DNA of 64,000 nucleotides from Natronorubrum halophilum (GCF_003670115.1 NZ_QQTY01000004.1:248001-312000); one strand, 5' to 3'. Counted from the first letter of the stretch, positions 51,094 to 60,312 are shown. A program made the numbers and translations. Notes: generated by a model not told the origin, from the letters alone.

Positions 51094-51621
51094 ATCCCGT
51101 GTCTAGGGGCTCCGACGAAATAAGTATCCTGACGAGTGTGTCTCCGTGCAACATTCGATCGCACCGAACACGTGCGGTATCTGACCGATCACCGAACCGG
51201 ATCGTCGAACCCCTTCATTTCGCATGGAGACCCTGGTACATGACGACGTCTGACAGGTCGGAATTGACGAGGGTCTGACGCTTGTCTGACGGTTTCGTCG
51301 GCCGAGTCGAACCGATGGAGACGTCGATTCCGACGACCGGTCGTTGGCGATCAAGCGCCGTCTCGAGTCGGAGACGGCGGCGCGGTCGGCGCTCGAGCCG
51401 ATCCGACGTCCGCCGAGACGACGACGGTGCGGGAACCCCTTCATTTCGTGTAGAGTTATCAGATAGTGAAAGCCGCCGAAACGAGGCGACCACGGATCGT
51501 CAGCACGACCAGTCAGGGAGATTGTTGTTGTTGATAGAACAGTTCAGACTACTGATGCGGCGGCGGAAACCGTCCTAACGAGTCGATAGTTAACGGAGTG
51601 AAAGACCCTCGTCTCGTCGTC
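51094..51621. repeat. Intergenic region with a 16-bp direct repeat resembling an origin recognition box edge
   Basis: No gene supported in 528 bases. GAACCCCTTCATTTCG occurs exactly twice, at 51207-51222 and 51433-51448 (226 bases apart). Its complement CGAAATGAAGGGGTTC resembles the G-rich end of haloarchaeal Orc1/Cdc6 boxes (TGGAAATGAAGGGG-like), and copy 1 is preceded, on that strand, by CCATG. TCTGAC is also repeated at about 51250-51295. No orc1/cdc6 gene is nearby. Confidence 0.4.
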
Positions 51622-53103
51622 ATGGTCGAACACGACAGACGGCGCGTCCTGACGTACAGCGGTCTCGCACTGGTCGGCGGAGTGCTTCCGTCCGGAGTCG
51701 CAACTGCCGATACCGACGAGGCGTCCTCGTCGCTCGAGGAAGCGAGCGGGTGGTCGTCACTCGGTGGCGGGCCGGGAAACAACGCGGTCGTTCCGGCGGG
51801 CGGGCCGGCATCGCCGGTGACGGTCGCCTGGGAGTACGATCACGGCGGTCCGGTCGCCGTCGTCGACGACACCGTCTACCTGACCGGCGACGGCGCGGTC
51901 CACGCTCTCGACGCAGCGGACGGCACCCTCGAGTGGAAAACGGAACCCATCGGTGCAACCGGGACGCCCGCGGTGACGGCCGACCACGTTTACGTCGGCG
52001 GTGAGCGCCTGTCGCGGATCGATCGCACCGACGGAACGATCTGCTGTCAGGCCGACCTCGGCTACGACGAGGCGATTCCGTCGCCCGCCATCGCGAACGG
52101 CCTGGTGTTCGTCGTCGCCGACGGCGTTCTGTACGCCGTAGACGCCCAAGACAACGAGGAACGATGGCACTTCGAGCCCGAGGATCCGCTGTACGAGCAG
52201 CCGGTCGCCGTTGCCGACGGTGCCGTGTTCGCCGTCAGCGAGTCGCAGGCGTTCGCGCTCGAACTCGAGGACGGCACCGTACGCTGGAGCGACGACGAGC
52301 CGGTCGGCGACGATGAGTACAGTCATTTCACCCCGCCGAACTTTAGACAGGTAAGCTACCCCGTCGCGACCGAGAACGTCGTCGCCGTCGGGAACGTCGA
52401 TTCGGAACCGGCAGCGGTGTGGCCGTCCGGATACGCGACGCTCTACGATACGGAAACCGGCGAGAAGGGCGTGAGCAGTGACCAAGGCCCGTACACGCCG
52501 GGACCGATCGCCGACGATCGATTCTACGCTCGAGATTCGCACGATCTCGAAGGGTACGGTCGAGACGGGGGAGAGCGCGAGTGGGAGACGGAGGTCAGCA
52601 CGTATCACGTATCGTCGGCTGCCGTCGGTGACGGGACCGTGTACGCGGGCCTCACAATTTTGGGCACCGCTCCCGCGGGAGAGGCCCCCGAACCCGAAGT
52701 CGGCGTCTACGCGTTCGACGACGAAACCGGAGAGAGGGAGTGGGCCGTCGACACCGAGGGCGAGCCGGAACTCGCACTCGCAGACGGAACCCTCTACGCC
52801 AGCGCCGACACGCTGGTCGCCGTTCGATCTGAAGACGACGACGGCGGCGAGGAGCCCGAAGACGACGAATCGGGTGAAGACGACGATGGCGATGACACGA
52901 CCGGCGAGGGAGACGAGCGCGACGACGATGCCGGAAACGAATCCGACGGGTCCGGCGATGACGACGCAGGACTCAACAGCAACGTCGAGTCGAACGACGA
53001 CGAGAGCGAAGGGATGCCCGGATTTACCGCGGGCGCGGGTATCGTCGGGAGCGCAGCGACACTCGAGTGGCTTCGTCGACGAAACGACGACGAGGCGGAA
53101 TAG
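51622..53103 (+). CDS. Tat-exported PQQ-like beta-propeller surface protein with PGF-CTERM-like anchor
   Basis: A 493-residue protein. A Tat-type signal (HDRRRVLTYSGLALVGGVLPSGVATA) is followed by a short linker and about seven propeller blades (residues 60-405; for example DTVYLTGDGAVHALDAADGTLEW, GVLYAVDAQDNEERWHFEP). An acidic stalk of about 65 residues leads to GMPGFTAGAGIVGSAATLEW and a basic end, the architecture of a PGF-CTERM anchor. The protein would stand on the cell surface; its ligand is unknown. The ATG at 51622 is preferred over the GTG at 51598. It is the intact relative of the remnant at 15683-16129. Confidence 0.82.
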   Translation: MVEHDRRRVLTYSGLALVGGVLPSGVATADTDEASSSLEEASGWSSLGGGPGNNAVVPAGGPASPVTVAWEYDHGGPVAVVDDTVYLTGDGAVHALDAADGTLEWKTEPIGATGTPAVTADHVYVGGERLSRIDRTDGTICCQADLGYDEAIPSPAIANGLVFVVADGVLYAVDAQDNEERWHFEPEDPLYEQPVAVADGAVFAVSESQAFALELEDGTVRWSDDEPVGDDEYSHFTPPNFRQVSYPVATENVVAVGNVDSEPAAVWPSGYATLYDTETGEKGVSSDQGPYTPGPIADDRFYARDSHDLEGYGRDGGEREWETEVSTYHVSSAAVGDGTVYAGLTILGTAPAGEAPEPEVGVYAFDDETGEREWAVDTEGEPELALADGTLYASADTLVAVRSEDDDGGEEPEDDESGEDDDGDDTTGEGDERDDDAGNESDGSGDDDAGLNSNVESNDDESEGMPGFTAGAGIVGSAATLEWLRRRNDDEAE

Positions 53104-55804: not shown

Positions 55805-58800
55805 ATGAGCAGACAACGATCGAAATCGACGCTCCTTCGGAGCATGGCGGTAGTATTCGCCCTTCTGATGGTTACATCACTCCCGGCGATGGCGGGAGTC
55901 GGTAATCTCGACGAGGCGACGACAGACGACGACCAACTCGACAGCGTTCAACTCGAGGATGGCCGAATCGACGAGGCGATCGAAGAGGCGGACGGAACCA
56001 CGGAGATGGTGGTTCGATTCGAGAGCGCCGACGTCGCCGACTCCGCGAGTACGACGGACTCCGTCGGCGAGTTACAACAGCACGCACAGGCGACACAGAC
56101 CGACGCGGTCCGGTGGGCCGTAGACACCGACGGCGTCGAGTTCGTCAACCAGTTCTGGATCGCGAACGCGGTCCTTCTCGAGGTCGATACCACGCAGGTG
56201 TCGCCCGAGGAAGTCCTCCGATACACCGGTGCCGAGTCGATCCACGCGAACTTCGACGTGGAAACGACGGACGAACGGAACGGCACCGACGCCGGTACGG
56301 ACGAGAAGTCGGCGACCGAACCGTCGGTAGAGCCGACGAACGAAACCGTCACGTACGGGCTCGACATGATCAACGCGACCGAAGTCTGGGACCAACACGG
56401 AACCCAGGGTGAGGGCGCTGGTGTCGCGGTTCTCGATACGGGCGTCGATACCGATCACCCCGACCTGGAACTCGACGACGGAAACTGGCAGGAGTTCGAC
56501 GACAGCGGCGAGCCGATCGACAGCGAGCCGAACGACGGGGACGGTCACGGGACGCACGTGAGCGGAACCGTCGTCGGACCGGACGAACCCAACGGCGACG
56601 TTCCCGCCTACGGCGTCGCTCCCGGTGCCGAACTCTATCACGGGAAGGTTCTCAGCGACGACGGCGGCGGATCGTTCGCGCAGGTCGTAGCCGGGATGGA
56701 GTGGGCCATCGCCGACACCGACGCCGACGTCGTCACGATGAGTCTCAGCGCTGGCGGCTACGAAAACGCGCTGATCGAGCCCTCCGAAAACGCTCGAGAG
56801 ACCGGCGTCGTCCTGATCGCATCGATCGGAAACAGCGGTCAGGGAGTCAGCGGAGCGCCCGGAAACATCTACCCGAACTTCGCGAGCGGCGCCGTCGACG
56901 AAGACGCGCAGGTCGCGTCGTTCTCCAGTGGCGAACTGATCGAGACGGACAGCGCGTATCCGGACGCGCCGGAGTACTGGCCCGACGAGTACGTCGTGCC
57001 GAACGCGGCAGCGCCCGGCGTTGACGTGTTGAGTTCGGTCCCCGGCGGCGGCTACGACGGGACCTTTTCCGGGACCTCGATGTCCGCGCCGCACAAAGCC
57101 GGTGCCTTCGCGCTGATGGTCGCCGCCTCCGGCGGTGATGCCGACCGCGAACTGCTGTACGACGCGATGGAAGAAACCGCCTGGCAACCCGCTCACGCAC
57201 CCAATGAGAGTCCGAACACCGAGTATGGACACGGGATCATCGACGTCGCCGCTGCGACCGATCTGGTCGCACTCGACAGCGGCGTCAACGGTACCGTCAC
57301 CGACGACGACGGCGCCCCGATCGAGGGTGCAACCGTCGACCTCGACGACGGCAGGAGCGCCACGACCGACGCGGACGGGCAGTACAACCTGATCGCCGCC
57401 GAAGGCGAGTACACCGTGACCGCCGACGCGTTCGGCTACGAGAGTACGAGCGCCGACGTAACGATCGAAGCGGAGGAAGTTACCACCCAGGACTTCGAAC
57501 TCGCCGACGGACTCGACGTCGAACTGATCGACGGACAGCCCGACGGCGTCGAAGGCGGTGACACGATCGACGTGACCGTCGACGCCGCGAACGTCGAGAC
57601 GGTAACCGTCGACCTCGACGGTGAGTACGAAACCGACAACGCGACCCTGTTCGTCGACGGTGTGGAAGCCGAATTCGGCGAGCCCGTCGACCTCGACGGT
57701 CCGGTCTCCGACGAACTGACGATCACCGTCGAAACGACCGCCGACACCGACGGCGAGCTCTCGCTCGAGCACACCTTCACGGGACTTGACGACGAGGCCG
57801 TCCTCACCACCGGTCCGACGATGGTGTTCGAAGAGTACGTCCCCGTCGCCGTCGTCGACGACGACGCTACGCACGGTGACGACGTCGCTGCGACCCTCGA
57901 GGAGTCGCTGCCGACGATGTATGCACCGACCGTCGTCTCCGCCGAGGAGGCCGCGAGCGGCTACGACGCGATCGTCGTCCAGCACCTAAACGAGTCGAAC
58001 GCCGAGACGTTCATCGACGCTACCGACGACGCGGCTACCGGCGTCGTCTACCTCGACCAGTGGGGAGCCGAGAGTAACGCCATCCCGGTTCACGCTAACG
58101 TGACCGGCGAGCCGAACGACACGTTCCAGGACGACTTCGTCACGCCGCCGCTCGGCTACGAACTGACGGCGACACACGAAATCTTCGACGGCGTCGGCGA
58201 CGATGGCGACACCGTCGACCTCCACGAGGGGGCGTTCGGCGACCACACCTGGTTCGACGACACCGAGTTCGACGTGCTGGCCGAGACCGCCATAACCGGA
58301 ACCGGAACGACGGTTGGCGACGGGTTCGCCGTCGACGAGCAGAGCGCCACGGTTCTGGCATCGAACCTGGGGTACACCACGTTCGTCGGCGACGGCGAAT
58401 ACACGGACGATGCCGATACGGTTCTGGCGAACTCCGTCGAATACCTCGTGACGGATCTCGGAACCGGTTTTCAGGTCGACATCGCGGAGACCAACGAACC
58501 GGTGATCGAAGGCGACGACCTGGTCGTCAACGCCACCGTGACCAACGTCGACGCCGAAAACGACACGCAAACCGTCTCCCTCACCGACTTCGAGGGCAAC
58601 GAGGTCGACAGTACGGAATTCTCGCTCAACGGGAGCGAAACGGCGGAGGTCACGCTGACGTGGGAAACCGCCGTCGGGGACGCCGGAACGGCCCCCGTTA
58701 CGGTCTCGAGCGACGACAGCGCCGCGTCCAGCAACGTGACGATCATCGAAGAGCCGGACGGCCTGCTGACGTTCGGATCCGGAGATCACATCGGAACTAT

Positions 58801-59347
58801 CGGCGAAACGACGACCGTCGACATCAACACGTCCGCCGACGCCGTCGCGGGATACGGAATACAGGTTCACTTCGATCCCGACGTCGTGCAGGTCACCGAA
58901 ATCGAGGGCGTCGACTTCGATGATCCCGTGACGAACGTCGATAACGACGAGGGGACGTTCACGATCGCACAGGCACAGGCCGGCGACGAACCGACCCCGA
59001 CGTTCGCCGAGGTCGAGTTCGAATTCATCAACGAGAGCGACGGTGCGTCCGAACTGGTGTTCGACGAGGAGAACACCTCTCTCAACGACCAGGACGGCGA
59101 ACTCGACATCCTGCCGGTCAACGGCACGATCTCGACGGCCTGGCCCGGTGACGTCAACGCCGACGGAGAGATCAACGCCTACGACGCGACGCTCACCCAG
59201 CAGTACCTCGCCAGCACCGAACCGACCGACACGTTCCACGAGTCGGTCGCCAACATGAACGGAAACGGACAGGTCGACGCCGGCGACGTCACGCTCATCC
59301 TGAGCGAGATCGTCGACACGCACGGCCCAACCGCACTCGAGGCGTAG
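55805..59347 (+). CDS. Secreted S8 (subtilisin-family) protease with cohesin and dockerin modules
   Basis: A 1180-residue exported protease. In order: signal peptide (1-30); an inhibitor-like propeptide (to about 155); the S8 catalytic domain with Asp211 (VLDTGVDTDHPDL), His248 (GHGTHVSG), oxyanion Asn343 and Ser425 (GTSMSAPH); a carboxypeptidase-regulatory-like domain (about 494-565); an uncharacterised beta region; a Rossmann-like module (about 676-885, perhaps ThuA/GATase-like); a CARDB-like domain (about 886-982); a cohesin-like domain (about 987-1111); and a C-terminal type I dockerin (1112-1173). The dockerin has two calcium loops, D1116-x-N-x-D1120...D1127 and N1150-x-N-x-N1154...D1161. 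There is no membrane anchor, so it is presumably held by the dockerin. The next gene encodes a wall-anchored cohesin-like protein. Confidence 0.9.
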   Translation: MSRQRSKSTLLRSMAVVFALLMVTSLPAMAGVGNLDEATTDDDQLDSVQLEDGRIDEAIEEADGTTEMVVRFESADVADSASTTDSVGELQQHAQATQTDAVRWAVDTDGVEFVNQFWIANAVLLEVDTTQVSPEEVLRYTGAESIHANFDVETTDERNGTDAGTDEKSATEPSVEPTNETVTYGLDMINATEVWDQHGTQGEGAGVAVLDTGVDTDHPDLELDDGNWQEFDDSGEPIDSEPNDGDGHGTHVSGTVVGPDEPNGDVPAYGVAPGAELYHGKVLSDDGGGSFAQVVAGMEWAIADTDADVVTMSLSAGGYENALIEPSENARETGVVLIASIGNSGQGVSGAPGNIYPNFASGAVDEDAQVASFSSGELIETDSAYPDAPEYWPDEYVVPNAAAPGVDVLSSVPGGGYDGTFSGTSMSAPHKAGAFALMVAASGGDADRELLYDAMEETAWQPAHAPNESPNTEYGHGIIDVAAATDLVALDSGVNGTVTDDDGAPIEGATVDLDDGRSATTDADGQYNLIAAEGEYTVTADAFGYESTSADVTIEAEEVTTQDFELADGLDVELIDGQPDGVEGGDTIDVTVDAANVETVTVDLDGEYETDNATLFVDGVEAEFGEPVDLDGPVSDELTITVETTADTDGELSLEHTFTGLDDEAVLTTGPTMVFEEYVPVAVVDDDATHGDDVAATLEESLPTMYAPTVVSAEEAASGYDAIVVQHLNESNAETFIDATDDAATGVVYLDQWGAESNAIPVHANVTGEPNDTFQDDFVTPPLGYELTATHEIFDGVGDDGDTVDLHEGAFGDHTWFDDTEFDVLAETAITGTGTTVGDGFAVDEQSATVLASNLGYTTFVGDGEYTDDADTVLANSVEYLVTDLGTGFQVDIAETNEPVIEGDDLVVNATVTNVDAENDTQTVSLTDFEGNEVDSTEFSLNGSETAEVTLTWETAVGDAGTAPVTVSSDDSAASSNVTIIEEPDGLLTFGSGDHIGTIGETTTVDINTSADAVAGYGIQVHFDPDVVQVTEIEGVDFDDPVTNVDNDEGTFTIAQAQAGDEPTPTFAEVEFEFINESDGASELVFDEENTSLNDQDGELDILPVNGTISTAWPGDVNADGEINAYDATLTQQYLASTEPTDTFHESVANMNGNGQVDAGDVTLILSEIVDTHGPTALEA

Positions 59348-59366
59348 GCAGCGAAGACACCACACC

Positions 59367-59386
59367 ATCGCCGCGAGGCGATTTTT
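59367..59386 (+). terminator. Stem-loop plus T5 between protease and cohesin genes
   Basis: ATCGCC-GCGA-GGCGAT (59367-59382) forms a 6-bp stem with a 4-base loop and runs directly into TTTTT (59382-59386), 20 bases after the protease stop codon. It may end or attenuate the protease transcript before the cohesin gene. Confidence 0.5.
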
Positions 59387-59436
59387 GTTCTGAACGGGTA
59401 TCGAACTGGAACGAACTCACGCACCAAACCAACACG

Positions 59437-60312
59437 ATGATAGATACGAACGCGACGAAGCGACTACTCGTCTGTACCATGGTGGTCGTCCTCGCGGCGA
59501 CGACGATGGTAGCCGGCGCACACGCAACGACCGCCGATGAACGCTCACACGGCGAACTGACGACGACCGCCGCGGACGACAGGCTGACGCTCGAGATGAC
59601 CGACTCGGGCGACGACACCGTGACGGTGACGGTGTCGTCGACCGTCGCTGACACCGCGGGCTTTCAGGCGAATCTGAGCTACGCACCGTCCGACGCGGAC
59701 GTCGAGAGCGTCGAATTCGAAGAGCTGGGTGGCGTCAATCAGTACGCCCACGACTCCGACACCGGGCACGTGTTCTTGACCCAGTCGACCGTCGGATCGG
59801 AGAGCGTCGACGAACCGACGCTCGCGACGGTGACGTTTACCGTCGACGAGGAACTGACGGGACTCGAGTTCGTCGACGACGATTCGCTGGTGACCGACGG
59901 TGACGGCGACGTCATCGGCGAGACCGACGAGTCGTCGGAAAGCGGGTCATCGGAGAGCGGGTCGTCCCCGGGCGGTAGCGGAAGCGGTGGTCTCGACGAC
60001 GAATCCGCCGGCGAAGCGAACGCGGCCGGCGCTGACGAGAACGATGGAGACGAAGCCGACGACGAGAACGATACCGACGGAAACGGTGACGACGAGACCG
60101 ACACCGACGACGAAACCGGCAGTAGCGACGATAGTAACGGCGATGAAACCGGAACCGATGACGAAACCAACAGTAGTGACGACAGTAGCGACGACAACGA
60201 AGTCAACAGTAGTGACGACGACAGCGACGGGCTGCCGGGCTTCGGTGCAGCCATCACGGCCGTGGCGCTGCTCGCTGTACTGGGTACCTGCCTGAGAAGC
60301 CGTCGGGACTGA
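59437..60312 (+). CDS. PGF-CTERM-anchored cohesin-like surface protein
   Basis: A 291-residue exported protein. A signal peptide (1-30) is followed by one beta-sandwich domain (about 47-165; DRLTLEMTDSGDDTVTVTVSSTVADTAGFQANLSYAPSDADVESVEF and LATVTFTVDEEL) with the strand pattern of cohesins. Next comes a roughly 95-residue Asp/Glu/Ser/Gly stalk, then LPGFGAAITAVALLAVLGTCL with basic residues, a PGF-CTERM signal. The architecture is that of a one-module scaffoldin fixed to the envelope. The neighbouring protease ends with a dockerin, the natural partner of a cohesin. Binding itself is inference. Confidence 0.82.
   Translation: MIDTNATKRLLVCTMVVVLAATTMVAGAHATTADERSHGELTTTAADDRLTLEMTDSGDDTVTVTVSSTVADTAGFQANLSYAPSDADVESVEFEELGGVNQYAHDSDTGHVFLTQSTVGSESVDEPTLATVTFTVDEELTGLEFVDDDSLVTDGDGDVIGETDESSESGSSESGSSPGGSGSGGLDDESAGEANAAGADENDGDEADDENDTDGNGDDETDTDDETGSSDDSNGDETGTDDETNSSDDSSDDNEVNSSDDDSDGLPGFGAAITAVALLAVLGTCLRSRRD

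Follow-up and report, generated by a model that had tools for sequence, protein, structure and literature searches.

A candidate archaeal cohesin-dockerin module for docking a subtilisin-family protease on the haloarchaeal cell surface

Results

A dockerin-bearing protease gene precedes a gene for a putatively anchored cohesin

We analysed a window of Natronorubrum halophilum DNA, by which we mean the whole stretch of 64,000 nucleotides, and focused on two neighbouring genes on its plus strand. A sequence-only reading of this DNA had called both open reading frames, and we recovered them at the same positions. The features of the locus are as follows.

55805..59347, + strand: gene for a secreted S8 (subtilisin-family) protease of 1180 aa with a cohesin and a dockerin at its end (open reading frame and Pfam)
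55805..55897, + strand: predicted signal peptide of the protease, residues 1-31 (basic n-region, then a hydrophobic stretch)
56408..57235, + strand: Peptidase S8 catalytic domain, residues 202-477 (PF00082, E = 4.3e-35)
57284..57502, + strand: CarboxypepD_reg-like beta domain of the protease, residues 494-566 (Pfam PF13620, E = 1.1e-17)
58802..59131, + strand: cis cohesin of the protease, about residues 1000-1109, directly before the dockerin
59144..59299, + strand: type I dockerin of the protease, residues 1114-1165 (PF00404, E = 4.5e-9)
59348..59436, + strand: intergenic region, 89 bp between the protease and anchored-cohesin genes
59437..60312, + strand: gene for a secreted, putatively C-terminally anchored single-cohesin protein of 291 aa (open reading frame, signal-like N-terminus)
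59560..59916, + strand: anchored cohesin domain, residues 42-160 (relatives, hold-out profiles, AF2 fold and Foldseek)
59926..60222, + strand: acidic stalk rich in Ser, Thr and Gly, residues 164-262 (D, E, S, T, G and N make up 91%)
60223..60309, + strand: PGF-CTERM-like tripartite tail, residues 263-291 (PGF, hydrophobic segment, basic end)

The upstream protein belongs to the S8 family by its catalytic domain (PF00082, 121.8 bits) and by an intact Asp/His/Ser triad, placed by motif at D211, H248 and S425. Its dockerin scored above the curated cut-off (PF00404, 36.8 bits) and aligned to positions 1-52 of the 57 in the model, spanning both repeats. Of the two complete calcium loops proposed earlier, the first (residues 1116-1127, DVNADGEINAYD) is canonical, but the second (residues 1150-1161, NMNGNGQVDAGD) carries Asn at ligand positions 1 and 5 and Asp at position 12; orthologues from the same genus have Asp at position 1 of this loop. 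The proposal that the protease has no membrane anchor agrees with its C-terminus, where a hydrophobic segment is absent. Among eight dockerin-less relatives of the protease, three end in a PGF-CTERM tail of their own, which is consistent with anchoring in cis and in trans as alternatives; the same count led us to reject the stricter rule that dockerin-less relatives are always self-anchored.

The proposed architecture of the protease was right about the dockerin but overlooked a second module, the cohesin directly before it, which emerged from profiles and modelling. In a whole-genome search with PF00963, which also picked up several unrelated small PGF-CTERM cohesin proteins, this stretch scored 22.5 bits, just below the cut-off, which its counterparts in protease orthologues exceed. 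A hold-out profile built from relatives' scaffold cohesins found it at E = 9e-29, and an AlphaFold model of the cohesin-dockerin tail matched PDB cohesins at 2e-9. The cis cohesin is conserved before the dockerin in nearly all S8 members. It probably accompanies the dockerin as a structural neighbour, in which respect it resembles the X-module of some cellulosomal dockerins, or else provides a further docking site. Since the protease carries a cohesin of its own, head-to-tail oligomers are conceivable, and the complex that had been pictured as holding a single enzyme may also exist in other stoichiometries.

Protease orthologues in the same genus and family are 63-84% identical over almost their whole length. 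Purifying selection acts on the two genes alike (dN/dS about 0.2-0.5), with values of 0.28-0.31 for the protease relative to two same-genus orthologues and 0.33-0.46 for the anchored cohesin domain.

The downstream protein has a predicted cohesin fold

Direct searches of the 59437 protein against Pfam, NCBIfam and PDB sequences gave no cohesin; the PF00963 model in particular had no direct match to the domain, and pairwise BLAST of the two window proteins against each other returned no match. Its relatives were more informative. Of 52 aligned relatives, 42 match Pfam Cohesin (PF00963) and no other family, among them a 47% identical orthologue in G016. Hold-out profiles found the domain at E values from 3e-21 to 3e-15, with 1e-18 to 5.5e-16 for those built without the window's close relatives, and when the anchored-cohesin profile was run against the PDB, all eight matches were cohesins. 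An AF2 model of the domain (pLDDT 85.1) has nine strands, and cohesins make up all 50 PDB matches listed by Foldseek (E < 1e-3; best E = 3.1e-5, TM up to 0.70), so structure prediction bore out the fold suggested earlier. By its relatives, by profiles and by its predicted fold, then, the 59437 domain is a cohesin.

The rest of the protein had been described as an acidic stalk with a PGF-CTERM anchor. The stalk and the tripartite motif are both there, along with the domain, and the motif is visible in the C-terminus (LPGFGAAITAVALLAVLGTCLRSRRD), but the profile matches to the tail fall below threshold (TIGR04126, 20.3 bits against a cut-off of 24.5; Pfam, 15.3 against 18.8). The genome encodes archaeosortase A (TIGR04125, 335 bits; cut-off 75).

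The gene pair is conserved while the dockerin-bearing protein varies

We asked how widely this arrangement occurs. Relatives of the 59437 domain are present in 22 of 125 genomes of the family, and in a class-level sample the anchored-cohesin profile matches 56 of 391 genomes. These 56 were picked by the cohesin alone, with neighbouring genes disregarded, and in 55 the gene directly upstream, on the same strand, encodes a dockerin; the one genome that departs from this is fragmented, and its cohesin falls within a large open reading frame. The same gene pair, whose presence in other haloarchaea had been put forward as a check, is thus found well beyond the window's genome, and the earlier description of archaeal cohesins and dockerins as isolated modules undersells a widespread unit whose relatives reach scaffolds of 14 cohesins. 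Carriers include Natrialba asiatica, N. aegyptia, N. taiwanensis, Halobiforma nitratireducens, Haloarchaeobius iranensis, Halomicrococcus gelatinilyticus and Halorubrum tebenquichense.

Dockerin counts are low, a few in most genomes. The window's genome has only two above the cut-off, and each lies directly upstream of an anchored cohesin-like gene; because both do so, the adjacency of dockerin and cohesin in this genome exceeds chance.

The docking pair is constant across these loci and the rest of the dockerin protein varies, with S8 proteases, Metallophos phosphoesterases, a beta-helix protein and a CBM-type protein among the partners. The S8 type occurs in Natrialbaceae, Haloarchaeobius, Halorubrum and others. 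At 22 loci the dockerin protein is of the phosphoesterase type (five were tested by Pfam, and all were Metallophos) and has no cohesin of its own, so that the anchored neighbour is the available partner; these dockerin genes often overlap the adjacent cohesin gene by 4 bp.

Several variants of the arrangement were also seen. One Haloarchaeobius genome (L134, L135, L136) has an S8-cohesin-dockerin gene that lacks a neighbouring cohesin gene, together with two extra anchored cohesin genes that lack a neighbouring dockerin; these are perhaps separated partners. In S8 proteases of 1500-1750 aa at other loci (L142, L143) and in the genomes G100 and G012, the dockerin directly follows the catalytic domain, and a neighbouring cohesin was not found. 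Pfam Cohesin matches, mostly to small PGF-CTERM-type proteins, occur in the window's genome (L004, L005, L006) and in most Natrialbaceae.

A probable module for docking the protease in trans

We considered what the two products would do together. The 59437 product would be exported, and archaeosortase A would presumably process its PGF-CTERM tail, leaving a putatively lipid-anchored protein that displays one cohesin at the cell surface on an acidic stalk. The protease, which has no anchor, would also be exported, and the calcium-binding dockerin at its C-terminus would bind the anchored cohesin in trans, so that a subtilisin-family protease is held on the cell. The role of such an arrangement may be to keep extracellular proteolysis, and the peptides that result from it, near the cell. 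We regard it as probable that the two genes form a docking module of this kind, in which the anchored cohesin captures the secreted protease through the dockerin; the binding, its dependence on calcium and the location of the complex are what we infer.

Docking in trans is suggested by the phosphoesterase-dockerin proteins, which lack a cohesin and still adjoin an anchored cohesin gene. These loci argue most strongly for the adjacent anchored cohesin as the dockerin's likely partner. The exchange of the dockerin-bearing protein around a constant pair, the PhoX pair described below, the self-anchored relatives of the protease, the multi-cohesin scaffolds beside S8-dockerin genes and the archaeal cohesin-dockerin binding reported elsewhere (PMC9012536) point the same way. 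On the other side of the balance are loop 2 of the window's dockerin, with no Asp at ligand position 1, the failure of Pfam to find the window's cohesin, the sub-threshold PGF-CTERM match and the unpaired Haloarchaeobius genes.

The cis cohesin raises another reading, in which the dockerin's partner is a cis cohesin, either in a different protease molecule or in the same chain, giving head-to-tail oligomers or an internal latch, and the 59437 protein serves some other partner. The position of the cis cohesin, immediately before the dockerin and kept there in nearly all S8 members, fits this reading, as does its strong distance correlation with the dockerin: in mirror-tree comparisons, the partial r given the S8 domain was 0.55 between dockerin and cis cohesin and 0.39 between dockerin and anchored cohesin. 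The partial correlation was significant for the anchored cohesin and dockerin and likewise for every other pair tested, so mirror-tree analysis does not separate docking in trans from docking in cis. What weighs against oligomers or a latch is that dockerin proteins without a cis cohesin, namely those at the 22 loci (Metallophos and others) and two S8-dockerin genes in G032, still adjoin anchored cohesins. Moreover, the tree largely separates anchored from cis cohesins (7 changes across 138 rows), which makes the anchored cohesins a conserved lineage of their own. We consider oligomers or a latch in place of trans docking unlikely.

Cohesins are not in themselves evidence of docking. Pfam Cohesin matches occur in 112 of the 125 genomes of the family, many of which have no dockerin at all, and we rejected such a match as a proxy for docking on this basis. 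PGF-CTERM cohesin proteins are near-universal in Natrialbaceae and present also in dockerin-free genomes, so the cohesin fold alone is no proof of dockerin binding. This observation favours the notion that the two modules do not interact at all, the dockerin being a calcium-stabilised C-terminal cap or a substrate-binding aid and the cohesin fold binding carbohydrate or the S-layer; so do genomes in which no cohesin is recognised and yet S8 proteases carry an internal dockerin, and a haloarchaeal mannanase dockerin described as participating in substrate binding (PMC10963439). Against it stand the 55 of 56 adjacencies, which span families and unrelated dockerin proteins, and the PhoX system described below, where such an adjacency is found again independently, and we think it very improbable that the pair does not interact. 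Equally hard to credit is an anchored cohesin that acts as chaperone, inhibitor or protector of the protease instead of as its docking site: tight gene linkage by itself fits a maturation factor just as well, but this cohesin lineage is also paired with phosphoesterases and further proteins that are not proteases, leaving the dockerin as the common element, and 7-14 repeats on one anchored chain (G030, G032) fit docking and not one-to-one inhibition.

Multi-cohesin scaffolds in one related genus

The pair has larger relatives in three genomes (G030, G031 and G032) of one genus of the same family. At 76-113 kb on a 3.9-Mb contig of G032 (C1), an orthologous pair lies beside a gene for a 2087-aa PGF-CTERM protein with 14 cohesins. 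The same cluster (L086, L087) encodes a PGF-CTERM protein with three cohesins, at least one with a single cohesin, and about ten proteins with a dockerin, the majority of which are S8 proteases. G030 (L088/L089, 468-493 kb) has a PGF-CTERM scaffold bearing seven or more cohesins, together with a comparable group of proteases, and G031 (L090) a smaller version of the cluster. Across the three genomes, most multi-cohesin scaffolds carry PGF-CTERM and many S8-dockerin genes lie alongside. Several cohesins on one chain, as expected of a cellulosomal scaffoldin, are thus found in G030, G031 and G032, whereas the window's genome has just a single anchored cohesin of this type.

In the cohesin tree, the pair cohesins of G030 and G032 group with pair cohesins of other genera (99/95), apart from the scaffold cohesins of their own genomes. 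The dockerins differ likewise, with the motif ..IL.DIV.THG in the pair and ITPADVTAIHQTIVG in the expanded set. Because tree and motifs both separate them, the pair is a conserved unit in its own right and the scaffold an expansion separate from it, and the window's pair is orthologous to the pair kept beside the G030 and G032 scaffolds.

Outside the G032 cluster, giant proteins of 2046-2573 aa with beta-propeller, CARDB and PKD domains (L137, L138, L140) have at their C-terminus the dockerin type found in the protease cluster and so could join the scaffold.

A second pair and divergent cohesins

The second above-cut-off dockerin of the window's genome ends a 950-aa PhoX-family protein, in which a cohesin-like domain again stands in the tail with the dockerin.

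L009:14634-18218 (G000:C2:118634-122218), window's own genome: PhoX-family phosphatase with cohesin-like domain and dockerin, together with the anchored cohesin-like gene behind it

Only 3 bp downstream lies a 242-aa gene that encodes a cohesin-like domain and a PGF-CTERM tail. This anchored domain is 42% identical to the domain preceding the PhoX dockerin, and the pair recurs in all 16 PhoX-dockerin loci examined, the window's genome included. PhoX-type cohesins lie mostly beyond the reach of Pfam (5 of 46 members match, the best at 3.7e-5); compared with the 59437 type by hhalign, they gave a probability of 91% (E = 1e-6).

This second cohesin type is also present in G008, which has 18 dockerins and zero Pfam cohesins. 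A 2096-aa protein there (L173:5179-11469) combines a GH5 cellulase domain with ten such divergent cohesin-like repeats, adjoins an anchored single-repeat protein (L173:11729-12514) and has GH5-dockerin genes nearby. This locus may encode a haloarchaeal cellulosome that is invisible to Pfam Cohesin.

Considering these loci together, we find it reasonably likely, with less assurance than for the docking module itself, that haloarchaea form cellulosome-like complexes, some of them proteolytic. PGF-CTERM scaffolds with up to 14 cohesins would gather secreted subtilases through their dockerins, the window's pair would be the simple one-cohesin form, and divergent cohesins would do likewise for PhoX and for the G008 GH5 enzymes.

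Relation to known cohesin-dockerin systems

As in the bacterial cellulosome with its CipA/ScaA-type scaffoldins, the enzymes here are secreted and end in type I dockerins, cohesins are carried by surface-anchored proteins, and relatives (G030-G032) have multi-cohesin scaffolds. In contrast to the cellulosome, the enzyme is a protease and not one that degrades plant cell walls, the anchor is of the PGF-CTERM/archaeosortase type and not an SLH domain or sortase, and the window's genome is archaeal and halophilic, with its single anchored cohesin of this type.

The non-cellulosomal cohesin and dockerin of Archaeoglobus fulgidus are likewise an archaeal pair with the cohesin fold (PDB 2xdh is among our fold matches), but in the haloarchaeal case two genes make up a conserved module in which both enzyme and anchor are defined; the title of a work cited by PMC9012536 calls the A. 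fulgidus modules an 'enigmatic vestige'. As summarised in PMC9012536 and references therein, archaeal cohesin and dockerin modules have been catalogued and pairs reported to bind, and, citing Peer 2009, that article says that archaea besides ANME lack large multi-cohesin scaffoldins. The ANME proteins it describes resemble the haloarchaeal ones as archaeal multi-cohesin proteins. However, ANME scaffolds carry a dockerin and up to five cohesins, whereas haloarchaeal scaffolds are PGF-CTERM-anchored with up to 14, and the usual ANME dockerin partners are ABC-transporter binding proteins, whereas haloarchaeal scaffolds adjoin subtilases. Haloarchaeal halolysins (S8) are also secreted subtilisin-family proteases, but the window's protease has in addition a C-terminal CarboxypepD_reg domain, cohesin and dockerin, and a probable anchor in trans.

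Dockerins of haloarchaeal glycoside hydrolases are mentioned as substrate-binding (PMC10963439, PMC13260240). Neither cohesins nor dockerins come up in a study that compares how haloarchaea use cellulose (PMC10267330). Our literature search, whose coverage excluded most subscription journals, found no description of the protease pair, the two-gene module or a protease scaffold.

Outside cellulosomes the roles of cohesins and dockerins are largely unknown, and the module bears on that question, which is testable in culturable haloarchaea because the carriers include the three Natrialba species named above and Halorubrum tebenquichense. It suggests a general means of holding secreted enzymes on archaeal cells and would extend the cellulosome principle to proteolysis. 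A conserved module with exchangeable enzymes also offers many natural matched cohesin-dockerin pairs from hypersaline habitats, which are likely functional at molar salt and of biotechnological use.

Other features of the locus

Between the two genes lies a terminator-like hairpin (59367-59382) followed by a T-run (whole motif 59367-59390), which could lower expression of the cohesin gene relative to the protease gene, although such motifs are no commoner here than in shuffled sequence. A few genes upstream of the pair, at 51598-53103 of the window, a secreted PQQ-type beta-propeller protein has an acidic stalk and a PGF-like tail of its own.
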